From a virus, in the IMG/VR virus record IMGVR_UViG_3300051212_000100, positions 1 through 28,983 of that record: a DNA stretch of 28,983 nt. The stretch is one strand, 5' to 3'. Position 1 is the first letter of the stretch, and every line of letters starts with the position of its first letter. Positions 2,827 to 28,983 of this stretch are shown in pieces. The notes under the pieces were generated by a model. The model made no database searches. It had not been told where the DNA came from and saw only the letters and a program-made list of their open reading frames with translations. The position numbers were made by a program, and so were the translations under genes.

Positions 2827-5319
2827 ATGAAGTTTTATACGAACATTGAGCAGGCGGGGAATCGCATCCTCGTTCGTGGTTATGAAAATGGTGATAGAGT
2901 TCAGTATCGTGTAAACTACAATCCTAGTTTGTATGTTGTTGCTAACAAGCAGACAGACCACAAGAGCCTGGATGGGCGTTTCCTCAAGGAAGTCCGTCCA
3001 GGCTCTATTAATGATTGTAGGCAATTCATCAATCAGTATGAAGGTGTGGAAGGATTTGAAATTCATGGAAATACTAGATACTTGTATCAGTATATCAACG
3101 AAGCATATCCCGATGACGAAATTCGCTTCGACTCTTCTCTCATTCGCACATTTACTCTGGATATTGAAACTGGAGCAGAAAACGGTTTCCCTGATATTGA
3201 ATCAGCAGACCAAGAGATTCTGCTTATTTCTCTCCGTGATTCTTTTACAAACCGCATCACTGTCTGGGGATCAAAGAGTTTCAAGAATGAAGACCGACAG
3301 GTTGATTACATCCATTGTAACGATGAGACGAAACTCCTTTCGTGCTTCCTCAAATGGTGGCAGGAGAATACCCCTGATGTAATCACTGGTTGGAATGTTC
3401 AACTATTCGATATGCCATACATTTGCCGCCGTATGGATCGAGTGCTTGGTGAAGACCATACTAAACTTCTGTCGCCTTGGAAATTAATCTCATCGCGTGA
3501 GATTTTTATCAAAGGTCGCAAACAGATTGCATATGATATTCCTGGCATTGCCACGTTGGATTACCTTGAACTCTATAAGAAGTTCACATACACCAATCAA
3601 GAATCTTATCGCCTCGACCACATTGCATCTGTAGAACTTGATGCCAAGAAACTTGACCACTCTGAGTTTGATACTTTCAAAGAGTTCTACACTAAGGACT
3701 GGGACAAGTTTGTAAAGTACAACATCCATGACGTTCGCCTTGTTGACCAACTGGAAGACAAGATGAAGCTACTGGAACTTGCATTCACTATGGCATACGA
3801 CGCCAAAGTAAACTACGAAGATGTTTATTCTCAGGTGCGTATGTGGGATAACATCATCTTTATCTATCTGGCGAAGATGGGTATTGTCATTCCTCCTAAA
3901 AAAGATAGTGTGAAGGATGCCAAGTATGCTGGTGCTTATGTTAAGGAACCTGTGCCTGGCATGTATGATTGGGTAGTGTCGTTCGACTTGAACTCCCTGT
4001 ACCCTCACCTCATCATGCAGTACAACCTGTCCCCTGAGACCCTTTTACCGCGCCGTAGCAGCGTCAACGTGGACATGCTGCTGGACAAGGCGTTTGATAC
4101 CAGCGACCTCGTAGGGGAGACCCTGTGTGCCAATGGGACGCACTACACCACCAAGCAGCAGGGGTTCCTGCCCAAACTGATGGAGAAGATTTACGAAGAC
4201 CGAACCATCTACAAAAAGAAGATGCTTGCTGCCAAACAACAGTATGAGAAAACTCCAACGATTGAGTTGAAGAAAGAAATCTCTCGCTGCAATAACATTC
4301 AGATGGCGCGTAAGATTCAACTCAACTCTGCCTATGGTGCTATCGGTAATGAGCACTTCCGTTATTACAAACTTGAAATCGCTGAGGCAATCACTCTTTC
4401 TGGTCAGCTTTCTATTCGCTGGATTGGTGACAGGATGAATGCTTATCTAAATAAGATTCTTAAAACTGATGGTGCTGATTATGTTATTGCTTCTGATACC
4501 GATTCTATGTATCTCAACCTTGGTCCTCTTGTTGACAAGATATTCGCAGGACGAGAGAAAACTAATGAGAGCATTGTTACGTTCCTTGATAAGGTCTGTA
4601 GCATGGAACTTGAAAAGTTTATTGAAAGTTCTTACCAAGAACTGGCCGACTACCTCAAAGCGTATGACCAGAAAATGAAGATGAAGCGTGAGAACATTGC
4701 TGAGCGTGGTTTCTGGACTGCCAAGAAACGCTATGTTCTTAACGTGTGGGATAGTGAAGGTGTGCGTTATGCCAAACCAAAGATGAAAATCTGTGGCATG
4801 GAAACTGCTCGTTCATCAACACCAGCTTATTATCGTGACAAATTGGAGCAGGCATATCGTATCATTGTAACCAAAACGAATGAAGATGTTCTTGACTTCA
4901 TTAATGAAATCAAAGAGGACACTAAGAAGCAGAACTATCTAAACATTGCATTCCCTCGTGGTTGTAATGGTCTGAAGAAGTATCGTAGTGCTGCTGATAT
5001 TTACCAGAAGGGCACTCCTATTCAAGTAAGGGGCGCATTACTCTATAACTATTACATTCGTAAAAACAATCTGGAGCACAAGTATCCAATCATTCAGGAA
5101 GGCGAAAAGATTAAGTTCATCTATCTGAAGACACCAAATCCTATCCGTGAGAATGTCATTTCGTTCTTTCAACAACTGCCGAAAGAATTGAACCTTGACA
5201 AATACATCGACTACACGCTACAATTTGAGAAGAGTTTCTTTGAACCGCTCAAGAACGTGCTAGAATGCATTGGATGGCAAGCGGAACGTAAAGGCAGTTT
5301 AACCAGTTTTTTTAGTTGA
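2827..5319 (+). CDS. 43: DNA polymerase gp43 (family B)
   Basis: Replicative DNA polymerase with 3'-5' proofreading. Length 830, near the T4 enzyme (898). Exonuclease motif I is TLDIETG with D112 and E114; motif II is WNVQLFDMPY; motif III is YNIHDVRLVD. Polymerase motif A is SFDLNSLYPHLI with D387, motif B is KIQLNSAYG from residue 496, and motif C is ASDTDS with D557 and D559. The C-terminal KGSLTSFFS looks like the clamp-binding tail. The gene is uninterrupted. A block of about 200 bases (3,985-4,190) starting at motif A is clearly richer in G+C than the rest, with codons such as CTG and ACC that the flanks use less. Confidence 0.97.
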   Translation: MKFYTNIEQAGNRILVRGYENGDRVQYRVNYNPSLYVVANKQTDHKSLDGRFLKEVRPGSINDCRQFINQYEGVEGFEIHGNTRYLYQYINEAYPDDEIRFDSSLIRTFTLDIETGAENGFPDIESADQEILLISLRDSFTNRITVWGSKSFKNEDRQVDYIHCNDETKLLSCFLKWWQENTPDVITGWNVQLFDMPYICRRMDRVLGEDHTKLLSPWKLISSREIFIKGRKQIAYDIPGIATLDYLELYKKFTYTNQESYRLDHIASVELDAKKLDHSEFDTFKEFYTKDWDKFVKYNIHDVRLVDQLEDKMKLLELAFTMAYDAKVNYEDVYSQVRMWDNIIFIYLAKMGIVIPPKKDSVKDAKYAGAYVKEPVPGMYDWVVSFDLNSLYPHLIMQYNLSPETLLPRRSSVNVDMLLDKAFDTSDLVGETLCANGTHYTTKQQGFLPKLMEKIYEDRTIYKKKMLAAKQQYEKTPTIELKKEISRCNNIQMARKIQLNSAYGAIGNEHFRYYKLEIAEAITLSGQLSIRWIGDRMNAYLNKILKTDGADYVIASDTDSMYLNLGPLVDKIFAGREKTNESIVTFLDKVCSMELEKFIESSYQELADYLKAYDQKMKMKRENIAERGFWTAKKRYVLNVWDSEGVRYAKPKMKICGMETARSSTPAYYRDKLEQAYRIIVTKTNEDVLDFINEIKEDTKKQNYLNIAFPRGCNGLKKYRSAADIYQKGTPIQVRGALLYNYYIRKNNLEHKYPIIQEGEKIKFIYLKTPNPIRENVISFFQQLPKELNLDKYIDYTLQFEKSFFEPLKNVLECIGWQAERKGSLTSFFS

Positions 5320-8148: not shown

Positions 8149-8182
8149 GGGGGGGACACCTAAATAAGGGTGACCCCCCTTT
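8149..8182 (+). terminator. Terminator-like hairpin with a late octamer in its loop
   Basis: GGGGGG (8150-8155) pairs with CCCCCC (8174-8179). After one A/A mismatch, CACC (8157-8160) pairs with GGTG (8169-8172), and TTT follows. The loop contains CTAAATA. A read-through RNA from mazG would fold it fully. A late RNA starting near 8172 would lack the whole 5' arm. Confidence 0.65.
8159..8166 (+). promoter_or_regulatory. Late-promoter octamer for the ligase-like gene
   Basis: CCTAAATA in the hairpin loop, 22 bases upstream of ATG 8188. Predicted start near 8172, giving a 16-base leader without a clear SD. This rules out the in-frame GTG at 8170 for late RNA. Confidence 0.5.
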
Positions 8183-8187
8183 CTAGT

Positions 8188-9396
8188 ATGAGCAAGAACA
8201 CCCACCTAGAGCACCTGGAAGACAGCATCCTGTTTGACGGAGAGCAGGGTGCTGTGGATGCCTTTGCATTTCTTGATGAGCTTACTAAAACTTTTAGTGG
8301 CACTCAAAATAAAAATTTTAAAATCACTACTAAGTGGGATGGTGCTCCTGCTGTAATCTGTGGTATTGATCCAGAGTTTAAACGTTTCTTTGTGGGCACC
8401 AAATCAGTGTTCAATAAAGATGGTAAAATTAATTATACGGAAGATGACATTCAAGAGAATCATGGTCACGCTCCTGGTCTGGTTGAGAAACTGAAAGTAG
8501 CACTTGAGCATTTTCCTAAATTAAAAATTAAAGGAATCATTCAAGGTGATTTGCTTTTTACTGACGATGGCAAAGATGCTAAGATTGATGGCAAAGATTA
8601 CTTTACCTTTACTCCTAATACTATCACTTATGCTATTCCCAAAGGCACTCCTGCATACGAAAAAGCTAAGCGAGCAAAGATTGGTGTAGTGTTTCATACT
8701 CGTTATGTAGGTAATAGTATTGCAGAATCACGCGCTACTTTTGGGGTTGACATTTCTAAATTTGCTGAAGATGATGACATCTTTGTTATCAGTGCCGAAG
8801 TCGGAACGCTTGGTTCTAATGTATTGTTAAATGCACAGGAGAAGCGCACTCTCACTAACATGAAAAAAGTTGCACAACGCACTTTGCCTGGTTGCAAAAA
8901 ACTTCTGAATGAAATTGCTGCGCTTATTGAAGCAAAAGATAATCTTTCGGTTGGTCCTCGACTCAAAACTTACTTCAACACTTATGTGCGTGAAGGAAAG
9001 AAGGTTAGTAATGTACCTGGATTCATTAATAACTTCAAAAAATATTTTGAAGGTGTGGTAATGAAGGAAGTTGATAAAGCAAAGATGGCAAAGACCAAAG
9101 CAGCAAAACTCAAGAAGCTTTATGATGGCATGGAGTTGATTGACAACAACATGGAAGCGTTTAAGAAATTAGTGATTCTATATAATACTATCAGTAATGC
9201 CAAACTCTTCTTTGTTAAAAAGTTGGAATCAAATGATGCTACTCGCACTTTCCTTCGCACTGAGCATGGATTTAAAGTTACCGCACCAGAAGGATTCGTA
9301 GCAATCAAAGATGGTGCCGCCACCAAACTGGTTGACCGTTTAGAGTTTAGTGTTGCTAACTTTACGATAGACAAAAACTGGGTTAAAGGAGATTAA
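8188..9396 (+). CDS. Uncharacterised ligase-like nucleotidyltransferase (KxDG motif)
   Basis: 402 residues from ATG 8188. It shows the order of motifs expected in the DNA/RNA ligase and capping-enzyme superfamily. Motif I is TTKWDGAPAVICG, with candidate AMP-accepting K49 in KWDG (49-52). A motif III-like GIIQGDLLF is at 116-124 and a motif IV-like IGVVFHTRY at 165-173. There are two later EG(V/F)V segments, EGVVMK (288-293) and EGFVAI followed by TKLVDR (368-383). I recall related unannotated proteins in cyanophages. The motif reading is direct; ligase activity is inference, and substrate (RNA, DNA or other) is unknown. It is translationally coupled to the next gene (TAATG). The first 80 bases are richer in G+C than the rest. 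Confidence 0.6.
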   Translation: MSKNTHLEHLEDSILFDGEQGAVDAFAFLDELTKTFSGTQNKNFKITTKWDGAPAVICGIDPEFKRFFVGTKSVFNKDGKINYTEDDIQENHGHAPGLVEKLKVALEHFPKLKIKGIIQGDLLFTDDGKDAKIDGKDYFTFTPNTITYAIPKGTPAYEKAKRAKIGVVFHTRYVGNSIAESRATFGVDISKFAEDDDIFVISAEVGTLGSNVLLNAQEKRTLTNMKKVAQRTLPGCKKLLNEIAALIEAKDNLSVGPRLKTYFNTYVREGKKVSNVPGFINNFKKYFEGVVMKEVDKAKMAKTKAAKLKKLYDGMELIDNNMEAFKKLVILYNTISNAKLFFVKKLESNDATRTFLRTEHGFKVTAPEGFVAIKDGAATKLVDRLEFSVANFTIDKNWVKGD

Positions 9397-20216: not shown

Positions 20217-20570
20217 ATGAATCCAAGTTCAGCAAAAGCGAAAGGTCGCCGTCTGCAACAGTGGGTAAGAGATAAACTCATTGAGATGCTTGAGGTTCAC
20301 CCAGAAGATATTGAATCTCGTAGCATGGGTGCTGGTGGCGAAGACCTTATTATGGCTCGTGCTGCCAGGTTAAAGTTTCCTCATAGTATTGAATGTAAAA
20401 ATGTGGAGAAGCTAAATATATGGGATGCCTATGAGCAGGCATCGGCCAACTCTGGTGACTATGAACCTCTCGTTGTAATTAAAAAGAATGGAAAGAAACC
20501 ACTAGCAGTGGTAGACGCAGAGTATTTCATTAGTTTATTCGGAGAGAAAAATGACTCTAGATCTTCATAA
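20217..20570 (+). CDS. Putative PD-(D/E)XK nuclease
   Basis: 117 residues. The central pattern GAGGEDLIMARAAR followed by SIECKN gives the D...E-x-K catalytic signature (Asp near 43, Glu-Cys-Lys near 60) of PD-(D/E)XK nucleases. An N-terminal basic helix (KAKGRRLQQWVRDKL) could bind DNA, and a final strand pair (EPLVVIKKNGKKPLAVVDAE) completes a small nuclease fold. Junction resolution or DNA repair is plausible but inferred. SD GGAGG is inside a hairpin and would be exposed in late RNA. The 3' end overlaps the next gene by 20 nt. Confidence 0.65.
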   Translation: MNPSSAKAKGRRLQQWVRDKLIEMLEVHPEDIESRSMGAGGEDLIMARAARLKFPHSIECKNVEKLNIWDAYEQASANSGDYEPLVVIKKNGKKPLAVVDAEYFISLFGEKNDSRSS

Positions 20571-21222
20571 CTTTTTCAAGTATTATGATGATGGTAATGC
20601 GAATCATGTTGCAGCAGTTCAATGGTTAGAAGATAACCTGCCTGCTCAATTCTTAGACGACTCAGAGACCGATTGGATTGGTGTCTTCAGAACCAAACCA
20701 CCAACTCCAGCGGTACTCGATGTTCCATACTTTAACCAAGTAGATAACTACAGAGATGCACATAGAACTTGTAACAGTTCATCGTGCGCTATGTGCCTTG
20801 CTTTCCTCAAGCCTGGCAGTATCAAGGGCGACGATGAATATGTCAAGAAAGTATTTGCAATTGGTGACACGACTGACCATGCGGTACAGACAAAGGTTCT
20901 CGCAGGTTATGGTATTAAGTCACACTTTAGCTATAATCTTTCTTTCGCTGACATTGATAAGAGCCTTGATAGAGGCAAACCCGTTGTTATTGGTATTCTC
21001 CACAGGGGTTCTTTATCTGCTCCTACTGGTGGGCACATGTGTGTAGTCATCGGCAAGACACCAGATGGCAAAGGATATTACATTAACGATCCATATGGTT
21101 CTCTAAACGATAACTATACTGGTCCAGTTACAAATGGTAAAAAGACCATTTATACTAAAGCAGTTCTTAAGCACAGATGGTGTCCAGGAGGTAACGATGG
21201 GTGGGGAAGGATCTTCGACTGA
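20551..21222 (+). CDS. C39-type cysteine peptidase with a module shared with the muramidase
   Basis: 223 residues. Residues 3-47 (DLHNFFKYYDDG, AVQWLEDNLP) are a short module repeated at the start of the muramidase at 21,330. Residues 55-220 look like a papain-fold C39_2-type peptidase: VLDVPYFNQ, catalytic C74 in RTCNSSSC, H162 in TGGHMCVVIG and D180 in YINDPYGS. Such enzymes cut peptide bridges; here peptidoglycan or a virion protein is the likely target (inference). No signal peptide. It overlaps the nuclease gene upstream and a small gene downstream. Confidence 0.75.
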   Translation: MTLDLHNFFKYYDDGNANHVAAVQWLEDNLPAQFLDDSETDWIGVFRTKPPTPAVLDVPYFNQVDNYRDAHRTCNSSSCAMCLAFLKPGSIKGDDEYVKKVFAIGDTTDHAVQTKVLAGYGIKSHFSYNLSFADIDKSLDRGKPVVIGILHRGSLSAPTGGHMCVVIGKTPDGKGYYINDPYGSLNDNYTGPVTNGKKTIYTKAVLKHRWCPGGNDGWGRIFD

Positions 21223-21343
21223 GTTTAAAAAAAAGATTCTGGAAGAAGTGAAAAAACTCACAAATCACGGTAAACATAAAGAAGCAAGCGAATTGTTTAA
21301 CATATACTTTCCAAATATAGGAGGAACAAATGGCAAGGATTGA
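21197..21343 (+). CDS. Small gene between peptidase and muramidase (48 residues)
   Basis: Starts inside the peptidase gene at ATG 21197, with AGGAGG five bases upstream, an excellent SD. The product is MGGEGSSTEFKKKILEEVKK followed by LTNHGKHKEASELFNIYFPN and a short tail, mostly one helix of TPR-like appearance. Its end overlaps the muramidase start by 14 nt. It could regulate or bind one of its enzyme neighbours; function unknown. Confidence 0.6.
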   Translation: MGGEGSSTEFKKKILEEVKKLTNHGKHKEASELFNIYFPNIGGTNGKD

Positions 21344-22001
21344 CCTACACAACTTCTTCAAGTTCTATGACGAGAAGAACCCTAACCACGTTAAAGCAGT
21401 TCAGTGGTTAGAAGACAATCTACCAGTCAAGTATCTAGAAGATAACGTAGATTGGGCGGAGATTTATAGAGGAAAAAAGGGTAATGCTGCATCGGCCCCT
21501 GCTGCTGCAGCTTCTGCTCCTGTAGCGGGTGGTGATGATGTTCCACAAATGGGAATCAAACTAGTCAAAGAGTTTGAAGGATGTAGATTAAATGCTTATC
21601 CTGACCCTCTTTCTGGTGGACTACCAATCACTATTGGTTGGGGTTCGACCAGAGATAAGAATGGCAAACCATTCCAGATGGGTGATAGCATCACTCAAGC
21701 AGAAGCAGATGATCTACTGATTGAAGAAGCAAAGCATCACTTCCTTCCAGCACTTCGTAAGATTCCACACTGGAATGAAATGTCTGATGGTAAAAGAGGT
21801 GCTCTATTATCTTTCGCCTATAATCTTGGCGCTGGTTTTTATGGTGGTGATAATTTTAATACTATCACTCGTGTTCTAAAAAATAAAGAATGGGATAAGG
21901 TGCCCGATGCGCTTTACCTCTACAGAAATCCTGGTTCAAATGTAGAAGCGGGGTTAGCACGTAGAAGAAAAGCAGAAGGTGAGGCTTGGAAAAAAGGTTA
22001 A
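21330..22001 (+). CDS. T4-lysozyme-type muramidase (GH24) with shared N-terminal module
   Basis: 223 residues. Residues 4-47 (DLHNFFKFYDEK, AVQWLEDNLP) repeat the module of the upstream peptidase. An Ala/Pro linker (50-70) leads to a GH24 domain (74-223) with catalytic E83 (EFEGCRL), D92 (YPDP) and T101 (ITIGWGS), the Glu-Asp-Thr triad of T4 lysozyme. It hydrolyses the glycan strands of peptidoglycan. No signal peptide, so release needs a holin or it acts from the virion. SD AGGAGG lies eight bases before the start. Confidence 0.88.
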   Translation: MARIDLHNFFKFYDEKNPNHVKAVQWLEDNLPVKYLEDNVDWAEIYRGKKGNAASAPAAAASAPVAGGDDVPQMGIKLVKEFEGCRLNAYPDPLSGGLPITIGWGSTRDKNGKPFQMGDSITQAEADDLLIEEAKHHFLPALRKIPHWNEMSDGKRGALLSFAYNLGAGFYGGDNFNTITRVLKNKEWDKVPDALYLYRNPGSNVEAGLARRRKAEGEAWKKG

Positions 22002-27857: not shown

Positions 27858-28220
27858 ATGAAACAACTGATTGCTCTTGCTGCTCTTCCGATGATTGCAG
27901 CACCTGCTATGGCAGCTCCTTATGTGGAGTCGAAAACCACTACTGCTCTTTCTGATGGCACTTACAAGGGTGCTCAAACCGAACTTCGTATCGGTTACGA
28001 TCAGAAAGTTGGTAACGGTGTGACTGTCTTTGCTGAAGTTGGTCCTGGTTATGAATGGACTAATGGCGCGGATGGTCAAGGCGTTGCCGTTGGTGAAGTT
28101 GGTATCAACTTCCCTATCGCTAATCAACTCTCTGGTAAATTCAAAGTTGCTGGTGAGTATGGTTTCGATTCCGAAGTGTTCGGTCTCGGTGGTGAACTGA
28201 AAGTTCGTTACTCGTTCTGA
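27858..28220 (+). CDS. Exported, outer-membrane-like beta-barrel protein (120 residues)
   Basis: Signal peptide MKQLIALAALPMIAAPAMAA with cleavage after AMA. The mature 100 residues alternate polar and hydrophobic positions (TELRIGYDQKVG, VTVFAEVGPGYEW, VAVGEVGINFP, SGKFKVAGEYGF, FGLGGELKVRYSF) as in transmembrane beta strands, and the last residue is Phe, the usual outer-membrane targeting signal. An eight-stranded or incomplete barrel is possible. Codon use and G+C (about half) differ from neighbours, suggesting a bacterial origin. Sits between two serine tRNAs. Confidence 0.7.
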   Translation: MKQLIALAALPMIAAPAMAAPYVESKTTTALSDGTYKGAQTELRIGYDQKVGNGVTVFAEVGPGYEWTNGADGQGVAVGEVGINFPIANQLSGKFKVAGEYGFDSEVFGLGGELKVRYSF

Positions 28221-28233
28221 TGATCAAGGGGGG

Positions 28234-28270
28234 TTGACAAGACCCCCGACCTCCTATATAATATGGAGGT
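28234..28270 (+). promoter_or_regulatory. Perfect sigma70-type promoter with inverted repeat around the -10 box
   Basis: TTGACA (28234-28239), 17-base spacer, TATAAT (28257-28262). ACCTCC (28249-28254) and GGAGGT (28265-28270) form a perfect inverted repeat either side of the -10 box. The -35 box lies in the loop of a second inverted repeat, GGGGGT/ACCCCC (28229-28247), which may also end the upstream transcript. Drives tRNA-Ser(TGA), tRNA-Pro and glutaredoxin. Confidence 0.8.
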
Positions 28271-28278
28271 CAACAAAT

Positions 28279-28363
28279 GGAAGTGTGTCCGAGTGGTTGA
28301 AGGAACTTGTCTTGAAAACAAGCATGGTGAAAGCCATCGTGGGTTCGAATCCTACCACTTCCG
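28279..28363 (+). tRNA. tRNA-Ser (anticodon TGA)
   Basis: Acceptor GGAAGTG pairs with CACTTCC, identical to the other Ser tRNA. Anticodon stem CTTGT/ACAAG with TGA at 28313-28315. Variable arm ATGG/CCAT, T arm with GGTTCGAATCC. Reads TCA. Confidence 0.94.
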
Positions 28364-28453
28364 TTGCTACTTGCGCTGGAAAGATAAACCAGAATGCCGT
28401 AGCAAGATAGAGGGTAAGCCTCTGTTATATCCTTGAGGTATATTACGCTTACT
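28364..28453 (+). ncRNA. Possible structured RNA between tRNA-Ser and tRNA-Pro
   Basis: No gene here. TTGCTAC (28364-28370) pairs with GTAGCAA (28399-28405), enclosing CTGG/CCAG (28376-28379 with 28389-28392). GTAAGC (28414-28419) pairs with GCTTAC (28447-28452). All are transcribed from 28234 with the tRNAs. A processed RNA, processing signal or tRNA remnant are all possible. Confidence 0.4.
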
Positions 28454-28459
28454 CCATCA

Positions 28460-28533
28460 CGGGATGTAGCTCAGTTTGGTAGAGCACCCGCTTTGGGAGC
28501 GGGTGGCCGTAGGTTCAAATCCTATCATCCCGA
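28460..28533 (+). tRNA. tRNA-Pro (anticodon TGG)
   Basis: Acceptor CGGGATG pairs with CATCCCG. D arm TAGCTCAGTTTGGTAGAGC, anticodon stem CCCGC/GCGGG with TGG at 28494-28496, T arm with GGTTCAAATCC. Reads CCA. Confidence 0.95.
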
Positions 28534-28554: not shown

Positions 28555-28827
28555 ATGATTTCGCAACTGGTTATTTACACACGAGATAACTGTGAATATT
28601 GTCGTAAACTCAAGGTAATCCTTGATAGTTTTACTGTCAAATACACACAGTATAAACTAAATGTTGACTTTGACAGGGAAGCATTCTATAATGAGTTTGG
28701 TGAAGGTTCCACATTTCCTCGCGTGACATTAGATGGTCATCTTCTAGGTGGGTGTAATGAAACTATTGAATATCTAACCAGCATTGGTTGCCTACAAGAA
28801 GAAAAAGACATGGAGTGCATGGTATGA
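28555..28827 (+). CDS. Glutaredoxin
   Basis: 90-residue thioredoxin-fold redox protein. Active site C13-E-Y-C16 (TRDNCEYCRK), cis-proline in TFPRV (about 53-57) and GGCNE loop (65-69), all typical of glutaredoxin. It likely reduces the C-terminal cysteine pair of NrdA, also in this window, as T4 NrdC does. SD AGGAG nine bases before ATG. The last residues (EEKDMECMV) add two atypical Met and a Cys. Overlaps the next gene by ATGA. Confidence 0.92.
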   Translation: MISQLVIYTRDNCEYCRKLKVILDSFTVKYTQYKLNVDFDREAFYNEFGEGSTFPRVTLDGHLLGGCNETIEYLTSIGCLQEEKDMECMV

Positions 28828-28983
28828 AAACTATTACAGAAGAAACTTTTTGTCATGACTTTGATGAAATTATGGATAGTGTAATGCTAAACAAAGAAAG
28901 TTTTATCATTACTACTGCAGATGGTTCTGATGTAGTGCTTTTACCATACGAATATTATGAGCGAATACAGGGGGAATTAACTC
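28824..28983 (+). CDS. Phd/YefM antitoxin-like protein, 3'-truncated by window edge
   Basis: 53 codons visible. The beginning MKTITEETFCHDFDEIMDSV followed by NKESFIITTADGSDVVLLPY and EYYERIQGEL matches the Phd/YefM antitoxin pattern: helix with hydrophobic spacing, then an I-I-T strand, D-G-x-x-V-V-L strand and the P-x-E-x-Y helix. In bacteria these bind DNA and neutralise a toxin. No toxin is visible within the window. Coupled to glutaredoxin by ATGA. Family call is by pattern only. Confidence 0.65.
   Translation, partial: MKTITEETFCHDFDEIMDSVMLNKESFIITTADGSDVVLLPYEYYERIQGELT

Follow-up and report, generated by a model that had tools for sequence, protein, structure and literature searches.

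A cyanophage gene with a predicted Phd/YefM fold and no toxin partner among its relatives

In the Phd antitoxin of P1 and Salmonella, the toxin-neutralizing segment comprises residues 52-73, and two residues within the P1 stretch DAEFASLF, F56 and F60, contact Doc and are important for its inhibition (PMC9207808). The isolated N-terminal domain has been described as a DNA-binding unit for E. faecalis Phd 1-55 (PMC13034048), and mutational data on E. coli YefM identify R10 and R31 as essential for DNA binding (PMC4803016). Genes of this type are also carried by cyanophages. S-CREM1 has three antitoxin genes, which were proposed in 2023 to counter host toxin-antitoxin (TA) systems, and its YefM (ORF54) is without homology to the host YefM (PMC9964418). 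Since that paper already makes the proposal for cyanophage antitoxin genes, the idea that they counteract host TA systems is not new, and 'antitoxins' of cyanophages are cited as a means of countering host toxin-antitoxin defense.

Here, we describe a cyanophage gene showing that the annotation 'antitoxin' may have no basis beyond the N-terminal fold: the toxin-blocking part is absent and no toxin is present, which calls the 'antitoxin' label into question. The family also offers a natural contrast that bears on the anti-defense claim, between a long marine form with a C-terminal tail and a short form without it.

Reading frame, family and predicted fold

The window, by which we mean the whole stretch of DNA analyzed, is a 28,983-base virus contig from a T4-like cyanophage. 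It contains MazG, glutaredoxin and tRNA genes, together with ORFs that, from reading their sequences, we take to be DNA polymerase-like, UvsX-like and helicase-like. The long ORF at 8170-9396 has a match to the uncharacterized family DUF6267 (E=4e-119). Two adjacent lysis-type ORFs (20551-21222 and 21330-22001) resemble each other over an N-terminal segment of 47 residues (62% identity, E=8e-19) but have unrelated catalytic domains, Peptidase_C39_2 in one and Phage_lysozyme in the other.

The gene of interest, here called phd, lies at the very end of the window (28824-28983, plus strand) and is cut by the contig end at codon 53. Its ATG at 28824 lies 8 nt after a GGAG resembling a Shine-Dalgarno sequence and overlaps the stop codon of the glutaredoxin ORF (28555-28827) as ATGA. 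The 53 visible residues, MKTITEETFCHDFDEIMDSVMLNKESFIITTADGSDVVLLPYEYYERIQGELT, belong to a small, strongly acidic protein with a pI of about 4 and a net charge of -9 in 53 residues. They match PF02604 (PhdYeFM_antitox) with E=1.3e-6 and 28.5 bits, slightly below the curated 29.8, and the PHROG family phrog_375, 'Phd-like antitoxin', with E=1.8e-9; PF02604 is likewise matched by 33 of the 36 family members at E<=0.01. Relatives were found at 20 IMG/VR loci, 16 of them at 75-92% identity. An exact-match search returned no near-identical contig extending past 28983, and no cellular relative turned up when the window-lineage alignment was run by tblastn, a method that reaches close relatives only, against 84,980 prokaryote genomes. 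Across the usable pairs of 13 sequences, and for the codons before the tRNA overlap described below, dN/dS is 0.135, about as low as that of the neighboring glutaredoxin (0.151). Judged by its sequence conservation, phd is a real gene under purifying selection.

An AlphaFold2 model built from a 36-sequence alignment has a mean pLDDT of 88.7, and its best matches by Foldseek and VIA-align are antitoxin chains of the Phd/YefM type, P1 Phd and YefM. P1 Phd truncated to residue 57 (3hs2) is matched over the full length of phd with TM 0.85 and Z 8.7; operator-bound P1 Phd scores equally (4zm2, Z 8.7), with 4zm0 also among the best structural matches. TA antitoxin chains fill the 23 top structure rows, with Z from 8.7 down to 5.9, before Z drops to 4.1 at the first unrelated one. 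No single Foldseek E-value is strong, the best being 2.5e-3, which is in line with a length of 53 residues; the order of the matches is nonetheless uniform. YefM (PDB 2a6q) is also the top PDB match by sequence profile, gapless over residues 1-50 (E=0.13), while a phmmer search of the PDB with a single marine sequence gave no match. The sequence-only reading of this DNA had seen the Phd/YefM pattern in the visible residues and had named a structure prediction lacking the Phd fold as the result that would overturn it. The pattern is borne out by the PF02604 and phrog_375 matches and the fold is found (pLDDT 88.7, Z 8.7), so that the Phd/YefM N-terminal fold of phd is confirmed at the level of a structural model.

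The end of the gene and its transcript

The end of the gene was read in 18 relatives that continue past the position where the window stops. Their complete proteins have 52-66 residues, and 53 or 57 in the closest relatives, so that the visible 53 residues make up almost the entire protein rather than, as earlier assumed, the N-terminal portion of a longer antitoxin; for the window we expect a total of 53-57 residues. In 17 of the 18 relatives, the stop codon sits inside a tRNA-Ala(TGC) gene, with an overlap of 10, 15 or 27 nt corresponding to three stop positions. The one exception is the relative L017, which has a TauE-like transporter ORF between phd and tRNA-Ala; this TauE/SafE-like ORF (224-1060 of L017) starts within the phd ORF. 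From position 28971 to its end, the window reads GGGGAATTAACTC, 13 bases identical to the 5' end of tRNA-Ala in the relatives L003, L004, L005 and others. We infer from this identity that the first 13 bases of tRNA-Ala(TGC) occupy 28971-28983 on the plus strand, where the contig ends, overlapping phd from codon 50 onward, and that the phd stop codon of the window also falls inside this tRNA gene. Because the stop codon sits within tRNA-Ala, the tRNA sequence also encodes the end of the protein, GELTQLVE or GELA. Overlaps between genes and tRNAs are known elsewhere in cyanophages (Syn1_193, the Sf-FR1 endonuclease and the Sf-FS3 dioxygenase), and the overlap of phd with tRNA-Ala is therefore unremarkable by itself.

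Upstream, a perfect consensus promoter of the sigma-70 type (TTGACA-17-TATAAT, 28234-28262) precedes a run of genes that, like the promoter, are all on the plus strand: tRNA-Ser(TGA) at 28278-28364 and tRNA-Pro(TGG) at 28460-28533, both predicted by ARAGORN, a 90-residue NrdC-like glutaredoxin at 28555-28827 (PF00462, E=3.4e-10), phd and tRNA-Ala. A 12/12 or 11/12 match to the promoter stands at the corresponding place in 14 of 16 relatives. Since tRNA-Pro ends only 21 bp before the glutaredoxin start, there is no room for an operator directly before the glutaredoxin-phd pair. The arrangement suggests that tRNA-Ser, tRNA-Pro, glutaredoxin, phd and tRNA-Ala share one transcript from this host-type promoter, and, as a promoter of that type points to early expression, phd is probably made early. 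The operon of phd with glutaredoxin that had been read from the sequence holds up, with the ATGA overlap and the same arrangement in relatives.

A second promoter-like site inside glutaredoxin (28664-28692, 11/12) could drive phd separately and is kept in many relatives, but it coincides with conserved codons (V-D-F-D ... F-Y-N) and was given no weight. Between two tRNA-Ser genes lies the gene for a beta-barrel outer-membrane cyanophage protein (27858-28220; PF24653, E=5e-26), whose slot is filled in L003 by a 292-residue SLH-domain protein (3516-4394).

Lost antitoxin parts, toxin search and possible functions

In the window lineage, phd ends at about the point where the Phd segment 52-73 would begin, at residue 52-57 in the closest relatives and presumably likewise in the window, which is cut at codon 53. 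In the gapless profile alignment to YefM residues 1-50, R10 is replaced by C and R31 by T. Residues E6, E7, H11, D12, D14 and T31 are invariant in the window lineage, and the N-terminal face that bears the first five of these is the best conserved part of the protein. As this face is conserved and the protein strongly acidic, although the antitoxin parts have been lost, the conserved acidic face appears to bind something other than DNA.

The marine form, of about 67-70 residues, belongs to the same family (hhalign Prob 97.9 between the two lineages) and retains K/R11 and R30-K31; its C-terminal segment includes W57 and H64, both invariant. Its tail DDEWYNLY is placed by hhalign on DAEFASLF of P1 Phd, but the overall match of the family to P1 Phd alone is insignificant (Prob 0.7-0.8%), so the resemblance is only a lead; the final residues, HDDAS, may owe their sequence to the overlap with the start of the next gene.

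No toxin gene was found next to phd in the 18 relatives, where the downstream neighbor is tRNA-Ala in 17 and the TauE-like gene in one. Among 59 clusters of neighboring forward-strand ORFs from 67 loci, none is a toxin family; transaldolase, glutaredoxin, 2OG oxygenases, transporters and proteins of unknown type are represented. In the five longest relatives searched (102-193 kb), YoeB, ParE/RelE, Fic/Doc and PIN (PF06769, PF05016, PF02661 and PF01850) had no match while the controls were positive, a result to be read with the possibility that the records are incomplete and that unrecognized toxins are missed. Each of these five relatives holds exactly one PF02604 gene, phd itself. The gene is thus solitary, as one of two earlier proposals had it. 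The other, a phage-borne TA pair with the toxin just beyond 28983, finds no support, either as a pair or as an addiction module, in the sequences of the relatives, and a toxin downstream of phd was rejected because the downstream genes of the relatives match no known toxin family. That the gene immediately downstream encodes an unrecognized toxin is highly improbable: phd does overlap a downstream gene of unknown function in some marine relatives, but the downstream genes vary by lineage (tRNA-Ala, a TauE-like or DUF401 transporter, a membrane protein, an AbrB-like protein, small unknown proteins), and no known toxin family occurs next door or elsewhere in the five long relatives. In the phage DSL-LC02 (L022, 3001-3332), a 56-residue Phd-like gene overlaps the following 53-residue AbrB/MazE-like gene, giving tandem antitoxin-type folds and no toxin.

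Our best explanation, which we hold tentatively, is that phd is an orphan protein of the Phd fold consisting of the N-terminal domain only, made early, dimeric, and affecting host regulation or TA modules through protein contact. The host-type sigma-70 promoter before tRNA-Ser would drive an early transcript carrying the tRNAs, glutaredoxin and phd; the protein would dimerize through its Phd fold and would make a protein-protein contact with the conserved, acidic face that formerly bound DNA. The likeliest target would be a host Phd/YefM-type antitoxin or TA complex, or another host regulator, and mixed dimers with the host antitoxin could disturb the TA operon or its balance. Relatives of phd occur in phages of Prochlorococcus MED4, and the absence of detected TA pairs in that genus (PMC5498466) gives a hint of a role beyond TA. 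A more elaborate version, which we regard as improbable, adds that RNase P cutting the shared transcript at the 5' end of tRNA-Ala would leave the phd mRNA without a stop codon, so that each transcript would give either protein or tRNA. The antitoxin fold would then have been repurposed to act on host TA complexes, through mixed dimers or DNA mimicry, and synthesis of the protein would be tied to phage tRNA maturation. This version draws on the loss of both functional parts of the antitoxin and on the acidic conserved face at the DNA-binding site, together with the protein-or-tRNA idea.

That phd instead neutralizes a RelE/YoeB/Doc-type host toxin released during infection, as an anti-defense antitoxin, is rather unlikely, though several observations fit. 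The predicted fold is that of an antitoxin, the upstream promoter is of an early type, and estuarine Synechococcus CB0101, the host of S-CREM1, has yefM/yoeB and phd/doc pairs and a relE that responds to phage within 30 min (PMC5498466). The marine sisters, moreover, have the conserved tail (W57, H64) with its likeness of DDEWYNLY to DAEFASLF. The window lineage, however, is entirely without the tail, the likeness is confined to a short motif, within an hhalign comparison that is not significant overall (Prob 0.8%), and the MED4 phages with relatives infect the genus in which no TA pairs were found (PMC5498466). For the window variant, the earlier suggestion of host-toxin neutralization is not supported, the protein having no equivalent of Phd 52-73. 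A protein without the canonical tail may still bind a toxin, since phage antitoxins can act unexpectedly; a host toxin might be neutralized by the long marine form, and with lower probability by the form in the window. The same contrast between lineages bears on a small toxin-less DNA-binding regulator, repressing itself or regulating a host promoter, which we consider unlikely. The isolated Phd/YefM N-terminal domain is a DNA-binding unit, the P1 Phd-operator structures 4zm0 and 4zm2 are among the best matches, and the marine sisters keep K/R11 and R30-K31. In the window lineage, C10, H11, T30 and T31 take the place of basic residues, R10 and R31 being essential in YefM; the net charge is -9 in 53 residues, and the sequence directly upstream of glutaredoxin-phd offers no space for a promoter or operator. 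A functionless remnant of an ancestral TA antitoxin would agree with a C-terminus that is shortened and taken over by a tRNA gene, but is quite improbable given the strong purifying selection (dN/dS 0.135) and the retention of phd at the same place across divergent cyanophages.

Comparison with known systems

By its sequence, phd is a shortened variant of the known cyanophage 'Phd-like antitoxin' family, which is held by at least 66 phage records, all of them cyanophages or marine viruses. In annotated phages, the gene stands beside glutaredoxin and/or transaldolase, near tRNA genes and without a toxin. The phrog_375 / T4-GC 859 genes of Kyanoviridae (S-PM2p167, Syn1_201 and S-CAM4 gp080) belong to the same profile family and have the same neighborhood, again with no toxin. 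Most members of phrog_375 / T4-GC 859 have 63-70 residues, a conserved acidic C-terminal tail and R30/K31, whereas the window lineage has 53-57 residues and T30/T31 and ends inside tRNA-Ala.

P1 Phd, with 73 residues, the Doc-neutralizing segment 52-73 and an adjacent doc, shares only 19% identity with phd over the structural alignment. The truncated construct P1 Phd 1-57 (3hs2) has the same fold as the phage gene product, which is in effect its natural counterpart. Compared with E. coli YefM, phd has R10 and R31 replaced, no YoeB partner and no C-terminal arm. T4 Dmd, a T4-like phage protein that counters a host toxin, is at most analogous to phd and has a different fold from Phd/YefM. As described, ORF54 (YefM) of S-CREM1, another T4-like cyanophage, is likewise a YefM-like gene with no toxin (PMC9964418).
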